This document shows, piece by piece, positions 12,925 to 21,294 of a stretch of 64,000 nt of DNA. The stretch comes from Opitutales bacterium (GTDB taxonomy: Bacteria; Verrucomicrobiota; Verrucomicrobiia; Opitutales; UBA953), in NCBI GenBank assembly GCA_017531845.1, contig JAFXKI010000011.1:124001-188000 (forward strand), written 5' to 3'. How positions within the stretch are numbered: the first letter of the stretch is position 1; the number at the start of each line of letters is the position of its first letter. The position numbers and the translations under genes are program-made. The notes beneath the pieces were generated by a model. The model had not been told where the DNA came from. It made no database searches and saw only the letters and a list, made by a program, of their open reading frames with translations.

Positions 12925-13290
12925 CTATTTTTTCTTTGCGCAGGATTTTTTGCAACAAGCCTTTTTCGCCGGAGCCGCTTTCGCGGGAGCTTTCTTTACA
13001 GCCACTGCTTTTTTAGCCGGAGCTTTTTTCGCAGGTGCCGCTTTCTTCGCTACCGGCTTTTTAGCGGGAGCCGATTTCTTGGCAGGAGCTGCTTTGGCTA
13101 CCGGTTTTTTTGCCGGAGCTTTCTTCGCCGGAGCCGCTTTGGCAACCGGTTTTTTGGCAGGCGCCGCCTTCTTAGCCGGAGCCGCTTTCTTCGCTACCGG
13201 TTTCTTGGCGGGAGCCGCCTTCTTAGCCGGAGCTTTTTTCGCCGGAGCCGCTTTGGCAACCGGTTTTTTCGGGGTTTTTGCTGTAGCCAT
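12925..13290 (-). CDS. Possible separately translated H1-like DNA-binding protein (tail of ppdK)
   Basis: From the internal ATG at 13290 the frame encodes a 121-residue protein, [16 protein letters not shown] and onward, made almost wholly of Lys, Ala and Pro in AKKAPAKKP-like repeats, with a cysteine-bearing end. Such proteins bind DNA and compact nucleoids in chlamydiae and other bacteria. No stop codon separates it from ppdK and no clear ribosome site precedes the ATG, but few genes here have one. Whether it is made alone, as a fusion or both cannot be told from sequence. Confidence 0.5.
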
Positions 13291-16050
13291 AGTATTTGGT
13301 TGGGATTGGGTTAACGAAATTTCCTCCTCAATCGCCGCCTGAGCCGCCGCAAGGCGAGCCGTCGGCACACGATAAGGAGAGCAACTGACATAGGTTAAAC
13401 CGATGCGATGGCAGAACTTCACGGATTCGGGATCGCCGCCGTGTTCGCCGCAAATACCAAGCTTGATGTCCGGGCGCGCTTGGCGACCGAGAGAAACGCC
13501 GAGCTTCATCATCGCTCCGACGCCTTCCTGATCGATAGACGCAAACGGATTGCGCTTCACGATTTCCAAACGCGTGTAATCACCGAGGAACGAGCCGGAG
13601 TCGTCGCGGCTCATACCGAGCGAAGTTTGCGTCAGGTCGTTCGTTCCGAAGGAGAAAAATTCCGCATCTTCAGCAATCTTGTCCGCCGTCGCGCAAGCGC
13701 GAGGAATTTCAATCATCGTGCCGACCTTGTAAGAAATTTTCACCTTCTTTTCCGCCATGACTTCGGCGGCAACGCGGTGAACGACCGCCGCCTGATTTTT
13801 AAATTCCGCCGCAAAACCGACGAGCGGGATCATCACTTCCGGAGCAACACGGATTTTTTCCTTAATACAATTTGCCGCCGCTTCAAAAATCGCGCGCGCC
13901 TGCATTTCCGTAATTTCAGGATAGGAGATTCCGAGGCGGCAGCCGCGATGCCCGAGCATCGGATTGAACTCGTGGAGCTCGGCAACGCGACGCTGAATGT
14001 GTTCGACGGGAACGCCGAGTTTTTTCGCAAGGTCAAGCTGCTGTTCTTTCGTTTGCGGAAGAAATTCGTGCAACGGCGGGTCGAGCAGTCGAATCGTTGC
14101 CGGCAAGCCTTTCAGCTCGCGGAAAATGCCTTCAAAGTCGCCGCGCTGATATGGAAGCAACTTGTTGACGGCGGTGCGGCGCCCTTCCAAATCCGTCGCA
14201 AGAATCATTTCGCGCACGGAGTCGATACGATCGCCTTCGAAGAACATGTGTTCCGTGCGGGTAAGCCCGATACCCTGCGCGCCGAAAGCAACCGCGACAG
14301 CCGTTTGCGACGGTGCGTCCGCGTTCGTGCGCACGCCGAGGCGCGTTACTTTTTTACACCACGCCATCAACTGAGCGAAATTTTTGTAAGTGGCGGATTT
14401 TTTCGCCTCTTCGTTCCCGCGAACGACACCGAGAATAACGTCGCTCGGAGCCGTGGCGATTTGCCCGAGATAAACATCTCCGGTCGTGCCGTCGATACTC
14501 ATCCATTCGCCTTCCTTGACGGAAACGTCGCCGACGGAAAGCGCGCGGTTCGCGTAGTCGATATCGATTGCAGACGCGCCGCTGACGCAAACTTTACCCA
14601 TTTGGCGGGCAACAAGTGCCGCGTGCGAGGAAACCCCTCCGCGCGCCGTCAAAATCCCTTCTGCCGCAATCATGCCGCGCAAATCTTCCGGCGAGGTTTC
14701 GAGGCGAACGAGCAAAACTTTTTCGCCGTTGGCGGCAGCCGCTTCCGCGCGCTCCGCATTGAAATAAACTTTTCCGGAGGCAGCGCCCGGTCCTGCGGGA
14801 AGCCCGTGCGCGATAGACGTTGCGCCCTTGAGCGCCTTGCGGTCAAACACGGGTGCCAAAACCTGGTCGAGCTGATCGGCGGGAACGCGGCGCACCGCCG
14901 TTTTCCAGTCGATGAGCTTTTCGCGAACCATTTCGCAGGCAATACGAATCGCCGCCACGCCCGTGCGCTTGCCGTTGCGGGTTTGAAGCATGAAAACCTT
15001 GGAATCTTCAATCGTAAATTCAAAGTCCTGCATATCGCGGAAGTGATTTTCCAGCGTTTTGCAAATGTCGAGCAACTGCTTGTGCGCGGAAGGCATAACG
15101 CTCGCAAGATGCGCGACGGGATCGGGCGTGCGCACGCCCGCAACCACGTCTTCGCCTTGCGCATTCATCAAAAATTCGCCGTAGAAAACTTTTTCTCCGC
15201 TCGCCGGGTCGCGCGTGAACGCCACGCCGGAGCCGGACTTGTCGCCCGTGTTCCCGAAAACCATGGACTGAACATTGACCGCCGTGCCCCAGCTGGACGG
15301 AATGTGATATTTCTGGCGGTAAATAATCGCACGCTCATTCATCCACGAGCCGAAAACCGCACCGATTGCGCCTTCAAGCTGCTTCCACGGATCCGTCGGG
15401 AAATCGCTTCCCGTGCGGTCTTTGATTAATTTTTTGAAGCGGAAAACGAGTTCGCGGAGTTCGACAACGCCGAGTTCCGTATCGCTCGCGTTCGGGTTTT
15501 CGAGCATTTCCGTTTTAACGGCACCAATAACGCTTTCAAACGGTTCGTGATCTTCGTTCGGAAGTTTTTGCACACCGAGAACGACGTCGCCATACATCTG
15601 GACGAAGCGTCGGTAGCAGTCCCAAGCAAAACGCTCGTTGTTCGTAACGCGGGCAAGAGCTTCGACGGTTTCGTCGTTCAACCCGAGGTTCAAAATCGTG
15701 TCCATCATGCCCGGCATCGACTCGCGGGCACCGGAACGCACGGCAACAAGAAGCGGGAACCCGGTAGCATCACCGAATTTTTTGCCGAGCTGCTTTTCAA
15801 TGTTGGCAACGGCATCGCGCACGTCCGCCATGAGCGTTTTCGGATAAGTCTTTTTGTTTTCGTAATAATACGTGCAGACTTCCGTGCTGATTGTGAAACC
15901 CGGAGGCACCGGCAAGCCGATGCGCGCCATTTCAGCGAGGTTGGCGCCTTTCCCGCCAAGTAAATTGCGCATTTGCGCGTTCCCGTCAGTCTTTTTGCCG
16001 AATTCGTAAACGAATTTCGTGCTTTTTTCGGCCGGAGCTTTTTTTGCCAT
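12925..16050 (-). CDS. ppdK: Pyruvate phosphate dikinase with an in-frame histone H1-like Lys/Ala/Pro tail
   Basis: The frame encodes 1041 residues. Residues 1 to about 910 are a complete pyruvate phosphate dikinase: [24 protein letters not shown] at the N terminus (nucleotide domain), phosphohistidine region [17 protein letters not shown] near residue 470, and GTNDLTQ and [10 protein letters not shown] in the C-terminal pyruvate/PEP barrel. It interconverts pyruvate and PEP with ATP and phosphate. After [19 protein letters not shown], where dikinases normally end, the frame continues through SLTQSQPNT into about 121 residues of [12 protein letters not shown]-type repeats ending [10 protein letters not shown], like histone H1-type DNA-binding proteins. 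An ATG at residue 921 (base 13290) could start the tail independently. Confidence 0.93.
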
Positions 16051-16360: not shown

Positions 16361-16540
16361 TTGACTCCTCCGCCACGCCTTACCAAGGGGAGGAGCTTTT
16401 TTTATTAATTCCTAATTTTTAATTAAATCACTATAAAAGCTCTCCCTCTTAGTAAGAGAGAGGGGACCGCAAGCGTAGCGCAGCGGTGAGGGCGTTCTTT
16501 AGCCGCGACGGGAACTCGGATTTCTTAACGCAAAGCACAA
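16361..16540. repeat. Double-palindrome intergenic repeat, copy a
   Basis: It begins TTGACTCCTCCGCCACGCC, then has a left palindrome truncated to TTACCAAGGGGAGGAGC, a second palindrome CTCCCTCTTAGTAAGAGAG, then GCGTAGCGCAGCGGTGAGGG, CGTTCTTTAGC and a tail shared with copy c (CGGATTTCTTAACGCAAA). Copies b and c are fuller. It encodes no protein. Confidence 0.85.
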
Positions 16541-16573
16541 AAAAAGCGCTCCCGTCAAACAGACGGGAACGCC
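16540..16573 (-). terminator. Hairpin, probable terminator of the PEP-CTERM gene
   Basis: GCGCTCCCGTC pairs imperfectly with GACGGGAACGC, with an A tract on its left that would be a T tract for leftward transcripts. One arm carries the CGGGAACG octamer. Confidence 0.5.
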
Positions 16574-16635
16574 ACAACTAACTTCATTAATCTATGTATC
16601 CGAAGCAAGGCTAAGCCCCGCTTCGAAAAGTCTTT

Positions 16636-16796
16636 TTGACTCCTCCACCACGCCTTCGGCGCGGTCCCCCTCCCCTTACCAAGGGGAGGAGCTTCTGATT
16701 TCCTTTTTTTAGATTTTTAAAAAGCTCTCCCTCTTACTAAGAGGGAGGGGACTGCAAGCGTAGCGCAGCGGTGAGGGCGTTCTTTAGCGACGGGAG
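16636..16796. repeat. Double-palindrome intergenic repeat, copy b
   Basis: It runs from TTGACTCCTCCACCACGCC through CTCCCCTTACCAAGGGGAG and CTCCCTCTTACTAAGAGGG to GGTGAGGGCGTTCTTTAGCG. The stop codon of the PEP-CTERM gene (16784-16786) lies inside the final CTTTAGC, so the repeat abuts the coding end. It is in the same orientation as copy c on the other side of the gene. Confidence 0.9.
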
Positions 16797-19429
16797 CGCC
16801 GACGACGCGACGCCACCAGCACCAACGCACCTACTCCCGCCAACAATCCGAACGCCGACGGCTCAGGAATCGTAAGCGTGAGAGAAAGCGTCCCGTCGCT
16901 ATACGACCATTCCTTATTTACATATTTGGAAAATGCTCCGGAGCTGTCCGTAACCGACAAATAACTCAATTGCTCTGTGGTCAGCGTGTCCGATGCCGCT
17001 GAGACATCGCCAAAGGTCAGGGTCGTTCCCGTCAGAATCGTCAGCATTTCATTGTCTGCACCAAGCGCATCTGCAAAATCAGCCAAGTCGACAACAAGCT
17101 TTGCGCCGGAAGCCAAATTGATTGTTCCCGCATCAACGTTTTCAACCGAAATCTGCAACTTAGCACCATCCGCCACAGAAACGTTTCCGCTACCAAGCGC
17201 ACTTGTGCTTGCCGCAACCAGCGTTCCCGCTTCAACAACCGTTGCACGCGTATATGTATTTTCTCCGGACAAAACCAATGTCCCGTTGCCAGTCTTTTTC
17301 AAGCCGGAAGAACCTTCGGCGTGATTTACAATCGCGCTGGAGATTTTCAATTCATCACCTCGGTTAGCAACCTTCACTTCGAAGTCTGTATTTCTTAACT
17401 GAATCACAATAGATGAAATTTCATTGTTTGTTCCGGTTGCAATAAACCGACCGCCCAAGGTATTCAACTTTGAACCTTCGGCTCGATCTGTCGTAACGCG
17501 CGCATTCCCGTTCAGCTCAATATCAGAAGTGAACGTAAGACTTTCCGTATCGTTGAGCATGAGCGTCGCTGTCTTCGCTTCAGAACCAGTCAAGCTAGCA
17601 ATCACATTATCTCGTCGGTCCCAACCCATGAGGTCATGCCCGGAAAATTTGGCAGTACCGCCTGCCAGAACATTAATCGTTCCGATTACGGCATCCCCAC
17701 CGGACAGGCTAGTGTTATCATTAACCGTCAAAGTGCCACCGTCTCCGACATTCAATGTTCCGCCGGAGATATTCACAACTTTGACACTTGCTGTTCCGGC
17801 AATCTCTGCCGTTCCACCAGTAACCTTAAGGGTTCCACCGGAAAGTGTTGATCCTGAATAGGTATAATCCGCAGCAAACTCCAACGTTCCGTTATTCGTG
17901 AAACCACCGGTAATATTCAGGGAGCCGCCAGACACTTTCAACGTCGCATCGTTCGCAATCGTCAGCCCTTTTCCTCCATCGGAGATGACACCTTCTGCGA
18001 CATCCAAAACGCCGTTTGAAAGTGTATTGTTCGCAAATAATACCGTTCCTGAACCGACTTTTGTCAGTGTGAAACCTCCGAGGCTTGCAGTCGTTACTCC
18101 ATGACCACTCCCGACAATACCAAACTCGTTTTCACCGCCAATCGTCGAATCAGCCGTCAAAACAAGCGTATGCAATTGCCTTTTCCCGATGTCAACATCG
18201 TTTCCCGTATTTGTCAAAAATCCTCCGTCAAGAACAACAGATCCTCCTGCGTACGAAAATCCGTCAGAGAAACCATTCAAGTCAAACGTTCCTCCGGTTT
18301 TCACAACAATCGTTCCGGAAACAACTTCTTCACTACCAAGCTTTAATGTAGCACCGTCTTCGATAAAAATAGAATATTGAGTCGTTACTTTACCGCCAGA
18401 CAACGTTACCGTACCGCCAAACACGCCGACACAAGTAGTAGATACACCTGCGGAATCTACCACAACATTTGCATCTTTATCAAAGACAACGTTCCCGCCA
18501 TTAGCAAAAACCTTAGATTCCCCTCCTTCGGATTCTGTCCAATTAGCATCCGTCGTATTCCATGTAGATCCATCTACACCGTTCCAAATCAAAGCGAGTA
18601 CCGGATCGCCTGCTGTATACCCCACGGAATAGCCAGAGGTGTCTTTTAGTAGAAACCATCCTTCTTCGACTTTCATTCCGTAGGTTCCATCGTCGTTTTT
18701 AGAAATTCCGTCTTCAAAAATCTCCGAGAAATTCCTCACCGTAATATCTGCGCCATCGGCATTTGTGAAAGAAAATGTTGTTACGGTGTTGTCAAACGAC
18801 ATCCCTGAGCCAAGCGTAATCAAATTACGATAATTCGAAAGAACAACTCCCCCTTTAGTTTCAGTTTCTTCTGTTGTCCCCAACACCGCAGAAAGGCTCT
18901 TAATCTTCGCCGTGTGCAAACCACTCACAGACGTAAGGTTCATAACCCCCGTCTCTCCAAGATCTGCAACAAATCCTTCTCCCCCTTGGGGTTTGTTGTA
19001 AGCTAGGTTAAAAATACCTTTGTTATCTAAGGTAATTGAACCGCCGTCACTTCCTCCACTAAAATTGCTGATTGTAAGGACGGAGGCCGCATCCAAACTA
19101 ACGGAACAGGAGCCGCCTTGGAATTTTTTCAACGAACCAACCGTAAGCTCACTCCCGACAAGAGAAAGTCGAAGATTCCAGCCCTCCAACTCGCTAATTG
19201 CACCCGTGGAGTTAGAAATGCTAATCGGTTCCCACATGTTAGAGTTTGGTGTTCCCGGACCGTTCCCTGATTCGTTCCAAGTAGAGCTATCAGTCAAAGA
19301 CCAACTATCTTGAGTTTGCCAGAACTCCTGCGTGATTTCGCCTCCATTCCATACATATCCCGCATAGGCGGTGGCGGTCATTGCGGAGGCTGCAATGAGG
19401 GTAGAAAAGAAGAATTTTGAGGTCTTCAT
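16784..19429 (-). CDS. PEP-CTERM protein with autotransporter-type beta-strand repeats
   Basis: An 881-residue exported protein: signal peptide (MKTSKFFFSTLIAASAMTAT, cleavage probably after AYA), then a long Gly/Thr/Ser/Asp-rich region of repeated short strands such as LSGGTLKVTGGTAEIAG and KTGNGTLVLSGENTYTRATV, predicting a beta-helix. The C terminus is a PEP-CTERM sorting signal: IPEPS, a hydrophobic helix GLLAGVGALVLVAS and the basic end RRRRSRR, recognised by exosortase. It is therefore probably surface-anchored or part of an extracellular matrix. Codon use is more AT-rich than its neighbours and the octamer is rarer (three copies in 2.6 kb). It is bracketed by direct repeat copies b and c, suggesting mobility or later arrival. 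Confidence 0.9.
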   Translation of the reverse strand: MKTSKFFFSTLIAASAMTATAYAGYVWNGGEITQEFWQTQDSWSLTDSSTWNESGNGPGTPNSNMWEPISISNSTGAISELEGWNLRLSLVGSELTVGSLKKFQGGSCSVSLDAASVLTISNFSGGSDGGSITLDNKGIFNLAYNKPQGGEGFVADLGETGVMNLTSVSGLHTAKIKSLSAVLGTTEETETKGGVVLSNYRNLITLGSGMSFDNTVTTFSFTNADGADITVRNFSEIFEDGISKNDDGTYGMKVEEGWFLLKDTSGYSVGYTAGDPVLALIWNGVDGSTWNTTDANWTESEGGESKVFANGGNVVFDKDANVVVDSAGVSTTCVGVFGGTVTLSGGKVTTQYSIFIEDGATLKLGSEEVVSGTIVVKTGGTFDLNGFSDGFSYAGGSVVLDGGFLTNTGNDVDIGKRQLHTLVLTADSTIGGENEFGIVGSGHGVTTASLGGFTLTKVGSGTVLFANNTLSNGVLDVAEGVISDGGKGLTIANDATLKVSGGSLNITGGFTNNGTLEFAADYTYSGSTLSGGTLKVTGGTAEIAGTASVKVVNISGGTLNVGDGGTLTVNDNTSLSGGDAVIGTINVLAGGTAKFSGHDLMGWDRRDNVIASLTGSEAKTATLMLNDTESLTFTSDIELNGNARVTTDRAEGSKLNTLGGRFIATGTNNEISSIVIQLRNTDFEVKVANRGDELKISSAIVNHAEGSSGLKKTGNGTLVLSGENTYTRATVVEAGTLVAASTSALGSGNVSVADGAKLQISVENVDAGTINLASGAKLVVDLADFADALGADNEMLTILTGTTLTFGDVSAASDTLTTEQLSYLSVTDSSGAFSKYVNKEWSYSDGTLSLTLTIPEPSAFGLLAGVGALVLVASRRRRSRR

Positions 19430-19471
19430 AGCTTGTAATGATTAAGTGGTGTGTAGTATTGTTAAATTGGG

Positions 19472-19505
19472 AAAAGGGACGGCAAAATTGTCCCTTTTAT
19501 TTTTC
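19472..19505 (+). terminator. Terminator-like hairpin upstream of the PEP-CTERM gene
   Basis: AAAAGGGAC pairs perfectly with GTCCCTTTT around a nine-base loop and is followed by ATTTTT on the plus strand. It lies about 45 bases upstream of the leftward PEP-CTERM gene, so it may be a leader hairpin or a block to rightward transcription. Confidence 0.55.
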
Positions 19506-19566
19506 GGATTTTATGAAAAAAAAAAACGGACGCAAGGGAATTTTGCGGCGGGAACGTGTTTTTTTT

Positions 19567-19722
19567 GGAGAAGTTCGCGCAAAGACGCCGTGTCGCGAAG
19601 TTTTTTTAAGAAGTTCTCACGGAGACACAGAGCCACAGAGTTTTTATTAAAAAATCTTTCAAACGCTTGGCGGCTTGGCGCGAGATTTCAAAAAAACATT
19701 TCACGCAAGGTCGCGAAGTTTT
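19567..19722. repeat. Word-type intergenic repeat (GCGAAG, CACAGAG words)
   Basis: Iterates words such as GTCGCGAAGTTTTTTT (twice), ACGGAGACACAGAGCCACAG and CGCTTGGCGGCTTGGCGCG. Similar wording occurs at 24207-24346 and 45288-45482. Confidence 0.7.
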
Positions 19723-19723
19723 T

Positions 19724-19901
19724 TTGACTCCTCCGCCACGCCTGCGGCGCCCCCTCCCCTTACCAAGGGGAGGAGCTTCTGATTTCCTTTTTTTAGATTT
19801 TTAAAAAGCTCTCCCTCTTACTAAGAGGGAGGGGACCGTGCGAAGCATGGTGAGGGCGTTCTTTAGCGACGGGAACGCGGATTTCTTAACGCAAAAACAC
19901 A
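19724..19901. repeat. Double-palindrome intergenic repeat, copy c
   Basis: It carries TTGACTCCTCCGCCACGCC, the palindromes CTCCCCTTACCAAGGGGAG and CTCCCTCTTACTAAGAGGG with the same spacer as copy b, GGTGAGGGCGTTCTTTAGCG, then the CGGATTTCTTAACGCAAA tail found in copy a. Within the last part a CGGGAACG octamer is present where copy a has GGGAACTC. Confidence 0.9.
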
Positions 19902-19962: not shown

Positions 19963-21294
19963 TTACTCGCGGGTCGGCTCGTAGATGCGGAGCAGAAGCG
20001 GCGCGGTGAGAATTTGCGGGAGCGTTTTAAGCTCGTCGACAACGCGTTCCATGACGGCTTCCGAGGTCGGATACGTCGCGAGCGTAATCGTGCCGCGGCG
20101 TTCGCCCGGATGTTCGTAAGTAACGACGCGGGCGACGGAAACGCCGTGTTTGGCGAGCACGGAATAGAAGCCGACGAGCGTTCCCGGCTCGTCCAAAATC
20201 GAAATGCGCAGGTAAAACTTCGAGCGGATTTCGTCCATCGTTGCCATGCGCGCGGTTTCGCCGAGGCGGTAGCAGGCGTCGATGTCGCTGGGCGTGAGGA
20301 ATTTGTGCGCGTCGTCGCGAATGCCGATCATCGCGTCGACGATGTCGCTGATGACGGCGGAGGAAGTGGCGTCCTGCCCGGCGCCGCGCCCGATGAGAAT
20401 TGTCGTTCCCGCGACGTCGCCGGAAAGCTTAATCGCGTTGTAAACGCCGTCGACGCGTGCGAGTGTTTTGTCGAGCGGAATGAGCGCGGGATAAACGCCG
20501 AGCGAGAGCGCGCCGGTTTTAAAATTGCGGCGAATCATGCCGAGCAGCTTGATGCGATAGCCGAAATCGCGCGCGCGGTGCATGTCTTCGAGCGTAACGT
20601 TGCGAATGCCTTCGACGAGGGCGTCGCGCTCGGAAACCCATTTCCCGTGAGCGAGGAACGCGAGAATAACGGCTTTGTGAAACGCGTCCCAGCCGTCGAG
20701 GTCAAGACGGTCGTCCGCTTCGACGTAGCCGAGTTTTTTCGCGTCCTGCAAAATTTCCTCGTAGGATTTCCCCTCCGCTTCCATGCGGGAAAGAATGTAA
20801 TTGCAGGTGCCGTTGATAATGCCCGCGATGGATTCAAAGCGGTTGGCAACCAAGCCTTCGCGCAGGGTTTTGATAATCGGAATCCCGCCGGCGACGGACG
20901 CTTCAAAGTAGTAATGTCCGCCGTGCGCCTTGACTGCGTCGAAAACTTCGCGCCCGAATTCGTAAATAAGCGCTTTGTTCGCGGAAACGACGACTTTGCC
21001 GAGCTTGAGCGCGGCGAGCGTGTAATCTTTCGCCTTCGTCGTGCCGCCCATGAGTTCGCAAACGATGTTCACATCCGGGTGGTTGACGACTTCCGTCGGA
21101 TCAAGCGTCAAAACTTCCGCGGGAACGCTCACGCCGCGTTCGCGCTTGAGATCGCGCACGGCGATTTTCGGGAACGCGATCGAAACGCCAAGGCGTTCTT
21201 CGAGTTCTTCGCGTTGTGATTGCAGGTGCTTCCAAACGCCCTGCCCGACCGTGCCGAAGCCGATAAATCCGATACCGATTTTTGTTTTATTCAT
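19963..21294 (-). CDS. hom: Homoserine dehydrogenase
   Basis: A 443-residue enzyme reducing aspartate semialdehyde to homoserine for threonine and methionine synthesis. GFIGFGTVGQGVW is the NAD(P) loop, VSANKALI and GIINGTCNYILSRM are active-site segments, and EADDRLDLDGWDAFHKAVIL carries the catalytic Asp/Lys region. A C-terminal ACT domain (about 360-443, YLRISILDEPGTLVGFYSVL) implies feedback control by an amino acid, probably threonine. Length fits the single-function ACT-bearing form. Confidence 0.96.
   Translation of the reverse strand: MNKTKIGIGFIGFGTVGQGVWKHLQSQREELEERLGVSIAFPKIAVRDLKRERGVSVPAEVLTLDPTEVVNHPDVNIVCELMGGTTKAKDYTLAALKLGKVVVSANKALIYEFGREVFDAVKAHGGHYYFEASVAGGIPIIKTLREGLVANRFESIAGIINGTCNYILSRMEAEGKSYEEILQDAKKLGYVEADDRLDLDGWDAFHKAVILAFLAHGKWVSERDALVEGIRNVTLEDMHRARDFGYRIKLLGMIRRNFKTGALSLGVYPALIPLDKTLARVDGVYNAIKLSGDVAGTTILIGRGAGQDATSSAVISDIVDAMIGIRDDAHKFLTPSDIDACYRLGETARMATMDEIRSKFYLRISILDEPGTLVGFYSVLAKHGVSVARVVTYEHPGERRGTITLATYPTSEAVMERVVDELKTLPQILTAPLLLRIYEPTRE

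Follow-up and report, generated by a model that had tools for sequence, protein, structure and literature searches.

The PEP-CTERM Locus and Its Repeat

The subject of this analysis is a hairpin-forming repeat in a 64 kb stretch of an Opitutales genome (G000:C9:124001-188000, hereafter the window), two copies of which, termed b and c, stand on either side of a PEP-CTERM surface-protein gene. The gene (16784..19429, minus strand) encodes an 881-aa protein composed of a signal peptide, a passenger with an autotransporter-type repeat and a PEP-CTERM tail, and it lies between the genes for pyruvate phosphate dikinase (PPDK; 12925..16050) on its left and homoserine dehydrogenase (hom; 19963..21294) on its right, all three on the minus strand. 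The PEP-CTERM motif scores 17.4 bits with TIGR02595 (cut-off 16), which places the protein in that family, and 19.6 bits with PF07589, slightly below the cut-off of 20.7. We favour, with a probability of about 0.6, the reading that the repeat is a non-autonomous family of REP-like hairpins that would spread with a standalone DUF559 nuclease gene and not with a RAYT transposase, that its copies in the window's genome are relics, and that one kind of repeat has been fused to the 3′ ends of PEP-CTERM genes.

The window's genome (G000; 1.69 Mb in 11 contigs) was studied within a set of eight genomes of the Candidatus Spyradosoma group (G000-G007), all of them fragmented assemblies, among which G003 is its sister species. 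By homoserine dehydrogenase, its relatives are metagenome-assembled genomes that bear the names Opitutales or Opitutia bacterium, Candidatus Spyradosoma merdigallinarum and, for the G003 contig, Verrucomicrobia bacterium (SIG76); the host is a gut bacterium.

Copies b (16637..16802) and c (19721..19885), both recorded on the plus strand and about 165 nt long, bracket the gene in the same orientation, as a preliminary description of this DNA had claimed. They share an identical 87-nt core (16666-16752 and 19750-19836) and are 89.5% identical over 172 aligned columns as whole elements. Copy b provides the stop codon of the PEP-CTERM gene, also in keeping with that description, and contains the last 18 nt of the gene; copy c lies between the 3′ end of hom and the 5′ region of the PEP-CTERM gene. 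Each copy is an inverted pair of one hairpin unit of about 58-65 nt, with the left unit at 16637-16694 (reversed) and the right unit at 16719-16783 in copy b, and at 19725-19777 and 19803-19862 in copy c. The unit is made up of AGCTC, a stem CTCCC..GGGAG, GGGGACC, a second stem and GGTGAGGG or GGTGGAGG, and each doublet folds as a single long hairpin (gene-strand z of -5.2 and -5.7, with none of 200 shuffles as good). A third, shortened doublet, copy a (16369..16513, plus strand), lies between PPDK and copy b, 120 nt beyond the latter, and at the orthologous place in G003 its right unit alone (64 nt) is present.

In the unit nearer the upstream gene the stem is followed by AGCTTTTTAA, giving a terminator-like site on the minus strand at 16727..16747 in copy b, downstream of the PEP-CTERM gene, and at 19811..19831 in copy c, downstream of hom. 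Both copies thus carry the stem and T run 3′ of a gene that define an intrinsic terminator, as a consensus match only; the region holds 14 such sites against 5.6 in shuffles.

Searches of G000 with the repeat returned about 15 sites, doublets plus half copies (the latter at C9:101k, C1:53k and C5), so that the repeat is dispersed, multicopy and mainly extragenic, as expected of REPs and REPINs. Six of the 15 sites are at 3′ ends of PEP-CTERM genes, five overlapping the stop codon by 9-18 nt and one 113 nt off, an enrichment with p of about 1e-6 given 36 PEP-CTERM genes among an assumed 1,400-1,700 genes. The preliminary description had named two findings that together would speak against its proposal of recombination around this gene, discussed below: relatives with the gene and no repeats, and a repeat common next to any gene. 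This is half the case: the other nine sites are not at the 3′ end of a PEP-CTERM gene. They adjoin unrelated genes, precede PEP-CTERM genes or, as with the partial copies at C8:6766 and near C1:81901, fall within mechanically called open reading frames (ORFs). The search for other genes flanked by the repeat, which the same description had proposed, found one on C3 of G000, where a doublet, an 859-aa PEP-CTERM paralogue and a second doublet repeat the window arrangement.

Linkage of the Repeat to DUF559 Genes

Searched with PF04480, the eight genus genomes yielded full-length DUF559 in G007 alone (two loci), a frameshifted DUF559 split over two frames in G003 and, in G002, a 41-residue match barely above the cut-off. 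The repeat-bracketed DUF559 of G007 (L128) belongs to the family at 108.4 bits against a cut-off of 20.6 and matches PDB 3hrl, an “Endonuclease-Like Protein”, with a phmmer E of 1e-20; DUF559 proteins have been described as Vsr-like PD-(D/E)XK nucleases (PMC12907096; this and the papers cited below are drawn on as excerpts). The G003 gene sits between copies of the window's repeat, and the G007 gene is bracketed by inverted units, two on one side and three on the other. The G007 DUF559 element (L128:210-932, plus strand) also lies directly downstream of a PEP-CTERM gene.

The unit-core pattern GGGGACCN{4,30}GGTGAGGG occurs at 138 places in G007, 18 in G003 and 9 in G000, with 0 exact matches in G001, G002, G004, G005 and G006, and its reversed control has 0 in all eight genomes. 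Since the unit-rich G007 (83% hom identity to the window) is a more distant relative than the unit-free G001, G005, G006 and G002 (97-92%), copy number does not follow kinship; as far as these counts go, it follows DUF559 across the eight genomes.

The association extends across the phylum and beyond. Among 288 genomes of the phylum, 21 carry full-domain DUF559 at E < 1e-25, and a flank repeat shared above 15 shuffles was found at 16 of these 21 loci compared with 0 of 8 partial or fused ones. The pattern CCCTCACCCN{1,6}CCTCTCCC, read from DUF559 flanks, is present in 15/21 genomes with full DUF559 and 29/267 others (p = 1.6e-9), an occurrence that is partly circular because copies beside DUF559 itself are included, and at least five copies are found in 8/21 and 5/267, respectively (p = 2e-7). 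Outside the phylum, 8 of 14 DUF559 loci from a plasmid collection pass the flank test, and the left flank of the DUF559 gene in Sphingobium RAC03 carries a GGGGACCATGCGAAGCATGGTGGAGGGG unit, nearly the same core as GGGGACCATGCGAAGCATGGTGAGGG at C3, C8 and C9:101k of G000.

These distributions bear on a simpler explanation, that the repeats are ordinary bidirectional terminators spread through 3′-end duplication alone, their link to DUF559 being incidental. The stem and T run 3′ of the PEP-CTERM and hom genes agree with it, as does the fact that the G000 copies that were read off mostly adjoin gene 3′ ends. Against it stand the 138 copies in the species with intact DUF559 and none in closer relatives, the units that bracket DUF559 in several phyla, and the doublets built as inverted pairs in the manner of REPINs, and we regard this explanation as improbable.

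A second alternative is that these are classical REP or REPIN elements mobilised by RAYT (Y1_Tnp) transposases. The inverted doublets are REPIN-like, and Y1_Tnp genes are present in six of the eight genus genomes (loci L162-L169) with REP-like flanking palindromes of their own. However, the repeats beside the Y1_Tnp genes are of other sequences; G007, with its 138 copies, has no Y1_Tnp match, and G002, G005 and G006 have strong Y1_Tnp matches and 0 exact copies of the unit. Mobilisation by RAYT, already disfavoured, is accordingly very improbable in our estimate. That all eight Y1_Tnp loci share flank repeats of other sequences serves as a positive control for the flank test and separates the two systems.

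Several observations count against the link to DUF559 that we favour. The same 8/8 result means that flank sharing alone does not single out DUF559. Because all genus genomes are fragmented assemblies, the absence of DUF559, as from G000, where the PF04480 search found none, may in part be an artefact. In G005 and G006 there is also a single short and weak hit each to the window repeat. Both the phylum pattern and the class limit of E < 1e-25 were picked after the data had been seen. Five of the 21 full-domain loci lack a shared flank in the shuffle test, two of which carry the palindrome on both sides by pattern, partly within the excluded 30 nt, and six of the 14 plasmid-collection loci fail the test. 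The phylum pattern is also found without full DUF559 in G258 (31 copies), G325 (25) and G301 (9), and a control genome, G249, has 26 matches to the reversed pattern, so that composition can inflate such counts. Genome comparison gave no sight of units moving and does not allow a target site to be defined. Finally, the DUF559 protein of Caulobacter has been reported as Vsr-like and tied to cytosine methylation, a role that needs no repeat (PMC12907096).

Inheritance of the Window Gene and Recombination at the Repeats

It had been suggested in the preliminary description that recombination between copies b and c could delete, duplicate or exchange the PEP-CTERM gene, and this is borne out in part. 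The repeats do appear to recombine elsewhere; the window gene itself is conserved. An orthologue with 93% protein identity lies at the same place in G003 within flanks of 97.6-98%, whereas a composite transposon, whose copies mobilise the enclosed gene, would be expected to leave an empty site. The two neighbours, hom (in 8/8 genus genomes) and PPDK (in 6/8), are adjacent solely in G000 and G003, and no empty PPDK-hom site was found, since the pair is split in the other six genomes. The locus thus does not fit the definition of a composite transposon. In G003 the repeats have changed more than the gene: half of copy c is present, the array at copy b is longer, and copy a is reduced to the 64-nt relic. 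Judged from this comparison, the gene has been inherited intact, with no sign of exchange.

Two compositional claims had been made for the gene. It is more AT-rich than its neighbours, as stated (GC 0.478 against 0.558 and 0.585, and 0.523 for the window). Its poverty in the octamer CGGGAACG/CGTTCCCG holds as a weak deficit, with 3 occurrences against 7.3 expected from the window average. The octamer occurs 176 times in the window, often within terminator-like hairpins, and is possibly an uptake-type signal.

Repeat-bounded change can be seen at other loci. On C10 of G003, a HigB-type toxin gene and its presumed antitoxin, for which a Pfam search gave no match, lie between two direct doublets (L120 7166-7021 and 6161-6058), and at C1:81k of G000 a single doublet (L089 5294-5444) aligns to each of them, the flanks on its left and right being in register. 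By this alignment of the two genomes, repeat-bounded gain or loss does occur. At C9:101k, G000 has one unit where G003 has four repeat copies and a DUF559 segment of about 1.4 kb. In addition, at three PEP-CTERM loci of G000 (C9:77k on the panC side, C9:84k and C8:75k) the downstream flanks are exchanged in G003, with the break at the gene tail and repeat. Since these are metagenome assemblies, misjoins at repeats may account for part of such synteny breaks, which also weakens the reading we favour.

The paralogous C3 locus shares with the window a block of 3.3 kb whose likeness is confined to its outer parts and does not include the gene middle. The 3′ part (16541..17230; 93.0% DNA identity) takes in a downstream hairpin, copy b and the gene tail, and the 5′ part (19360..19895; 92.0%) the signal-peptide codons, the upstream region and copy c, at whose right end the homology stops. 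In the 5′ segment orthologous loci are 97.2 and 96.7% identical and the two loci within one genome 94.1 and 93.0%; for the short tail segment the picture is mixed, with 92.2 and 97.7% against 96.7 and 93.1%. Because the block ends are overall closer between orthologues than within a genome, the duplication most likely predates the split of G000 and G003. The idea that the block was cut exactly by repeats a and c was rejected on the left side: the block starts there at a CGTTCCCG hairpin, G003 has about 380 nt of other sequence before the copy-a relic, and C3 has no repeat at that point. Another intergenic repeat, with GGTAAAAACAAGCC...CGGGGCG, is found near several sites, including both sides of the PEP-CTERM gene at L083 (G003 C14) and L092 near 5300.

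PEP-CTERM Genes with Kept Ends and Replaced Middles

The loci of all PEP-CTERM matches in G000 (36) and G003 (66) were compared and paired by flanking DNA, which gave a G003 counterpart for 32 of the 36 G000 loci, the other four having none among the fetched loci. The partner of C9:77194 was set by hand to C12:113723 of G003, in place of the automatic one, because the panC side is shared. In nine pairs (G000 loci C1:46854, C11:367797, C3, C9:204851, C5:194949, C9:77194, C9:101552, C4:66849 and C4:78188) the first 60 nt (83-100%) and the last 81 nt (85-98%) are kept, and the middle is 53-64% identical in global alignment (one at 64%, the others 53-59%), no more than unrelated or barely related DNA would give. 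The middle is kept in fifteen pairs, including the window's and C8:75441, and eight G000 genes with one flank, a truncation or a doubtful start were left unclassified (C8:93013, C5:219394, C11:483473, C5:57844, C11:394090, C11:156633, C9:84718 and C9:223239).

Replaced middles occur in four of six repeat-adjacent and five of 18 repeat-free PEP-CTERM genes, so the proposition that the variable genes are the repeat-adjacent ones is a trend alone (Fisher p = 0.15). At the three repeat-bearing loci that were mapped (C3, C9:101 and C9:77) the replaced segment begins after about 20-24 codons and ends about 27-30 codons before the stop, its limits falling within the gene rather than at the repeats. 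An insertion of a PEP-CTERM gene beside repeats on C7 of G003, absent at C5 of G000, was likewise rejected as repeat-bounded, its limits being about 150 nt from the unit. At another PEP-CTERM insertion, on C2 of G003, a flank match shorter than 20 nt (AAAAAAAACGTTCCCG) surrounds the inserted DNA.

The proposal that copies b and c are recombination arms for deleting, duplicating or swapping this whole gene draws on the toxin pair between G003 doublets, on the paralogous block with both repeats at C3, on the synteny breaks at repeat-bearing PEP-CTERM ends and on the DUF559 segment among the G003 units. It does not fit the window gene, kept in place in G003, nor the mapped limits within genes; middle replacement is equally clear at the five repeat-free loci, and the gene absence at C5 was not repeat-bounded. 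We consider this proposal, too, to be improbable.

The middles might instead differ through fast divergence under selection, the signal peptide and tail being constrained and no exchange having taken place. The conserved ends are indeed functional sorting signals. However, the flanking DNA of these loci is mostly 93-98% identical, the middles are no more alike than unrelated DNA and in many cases unequal in length, and the passenger of G003 C15:71317 is closer to the non-syntenic C7:29910 of G000 (72% over 170 aa) than to its syntenic partner (41%). Divergence without exchange is therefore unlikely, if somewhat less so than the whole-gene and terminator explanations. Compared locus by locus, the middles appear to have been replaced between conserved ends independently of the repeats. 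The set of syntenic PEP-CTERM loci that show this pattern is a ready system for testing surface-protein diversification.

A Possible Mechanism

In the mechanism that we propose, a DUF559 gene that is itself bracketed by the units it accompanies would encode a nuclease that recognises the unit and nicks or cuts it. Repair of the break or nick would draw on another copy or follow strand pairing, and units together with the DNA between them could thereby be copied or lost. Copies left without the nuclease would decay in place, as in G000, and persist as 3′-end hairpins, many of them terminator-like, a form that would render them harmless at gene ends. One kind of repeat would have fused with PEP-CTERM genes at their conserved 3′ end, giving the last codons and the stop; the alignments suggest that this fusion may have arisen at the common GCGACGG and then spread by recombination in the tail. 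The sharing of the repeat among several PEP-CTERM genes would be explained most simply by homologous recombination in that shared tail, and the replaced middles by recombination between the conserved gene ends. The bracketing of the window gene would then follow from copy b being the gene's own 3′ module and from the position of copy c at the 3′ end of hom. That DUF559 moves the units or drives their copying is an inference from the genomic linkage.

A wider proposal, which we hold tentatively at somewhat under even odds, is that standalone DUF559 proteins drive a second class of REP-like mobile hairpins, independent of RAYT, in several phyla, whose copies would settle at gene ends, act there as terminators and provide recombination arms through which cargo such as toxin pairs is gained or lost, and which would have been welded to the ends of PEP-CTERM sorting tails whose passengers are shuffled. 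Many families of palindromic repeats have no known mover. If the proposal is true, the DUF559 linkage, from Verrucomicrobiota to Sphingobium, would give one such family a candidate mover, and would supply a role for a domain whose name still refers to unknown function.

Comparison with Known Repeat Systems

The closest known kind to the window repeat is the REPIN. REPs and REPINs are short palindromic units, found as singlets and as inverted doublets that form one hairpin, mostly extragenic, and clustered at a linked enzyme gene (PMC3116915). The window repeat is likewise a palindromic unit in inverted doublets that form a hairpin. It differs in its unit sequence, in doublets of about 145-165 nt and in its linked gene, which is DUF559 and not a Y1_Tnp RAYT. 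In the genus genomes no cognate RAYT flanked by the same unit was found, and the repeat therefore works like a REPIN and is not classed as one. The GTAG- and CGTC-tagged REPs and TIRtrons are also palindromic repeat families, among which the CGTC REPs have no dedicated transposase and some tyrosine transposases have inverted repeats of other kinds at their flanks (PMC3733652). The window unit differs from these tagged REPs in ending in GGTGAGGG or GGTGGAGG, and the excerpted text of that paper holds no mention of DUF559, Vsr or terminators.

Regarding the enzyme, the repeat-linked DUF559 is of the same Pfam family as VsrA of Caulobacter (PMC12907096) and PDB 3hrl. VsrA has been proposed to act in mismatch repair linked to cytosine methylation, an association with repeats being unmentioned in the excerpts of that paper (PMC12907096). 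In Legionella, repeated DUF559 segments join in intragenomic recombination and are among the recombination hotspots; the segment there comes with a transposase, and the excerpted text does not describe small hairpin repeats (PMC12308824). We found no report tying DUF559 to such repeats in one open-access library, most subscription papers being outside its scope.

Other Features of the Window

An Rfam scan of the window matched three tRNAs and nothing else. The PPDK reading frame continues into a tail of about 130 aa rich in lysine, alanine and proline that resembles histone HC2. Matches to the protein span nearly all of its 1041 aa in G003, G005 and G006, and reach residue 1036 in G001; PPDK with its tail is therefore conserved in the genus.

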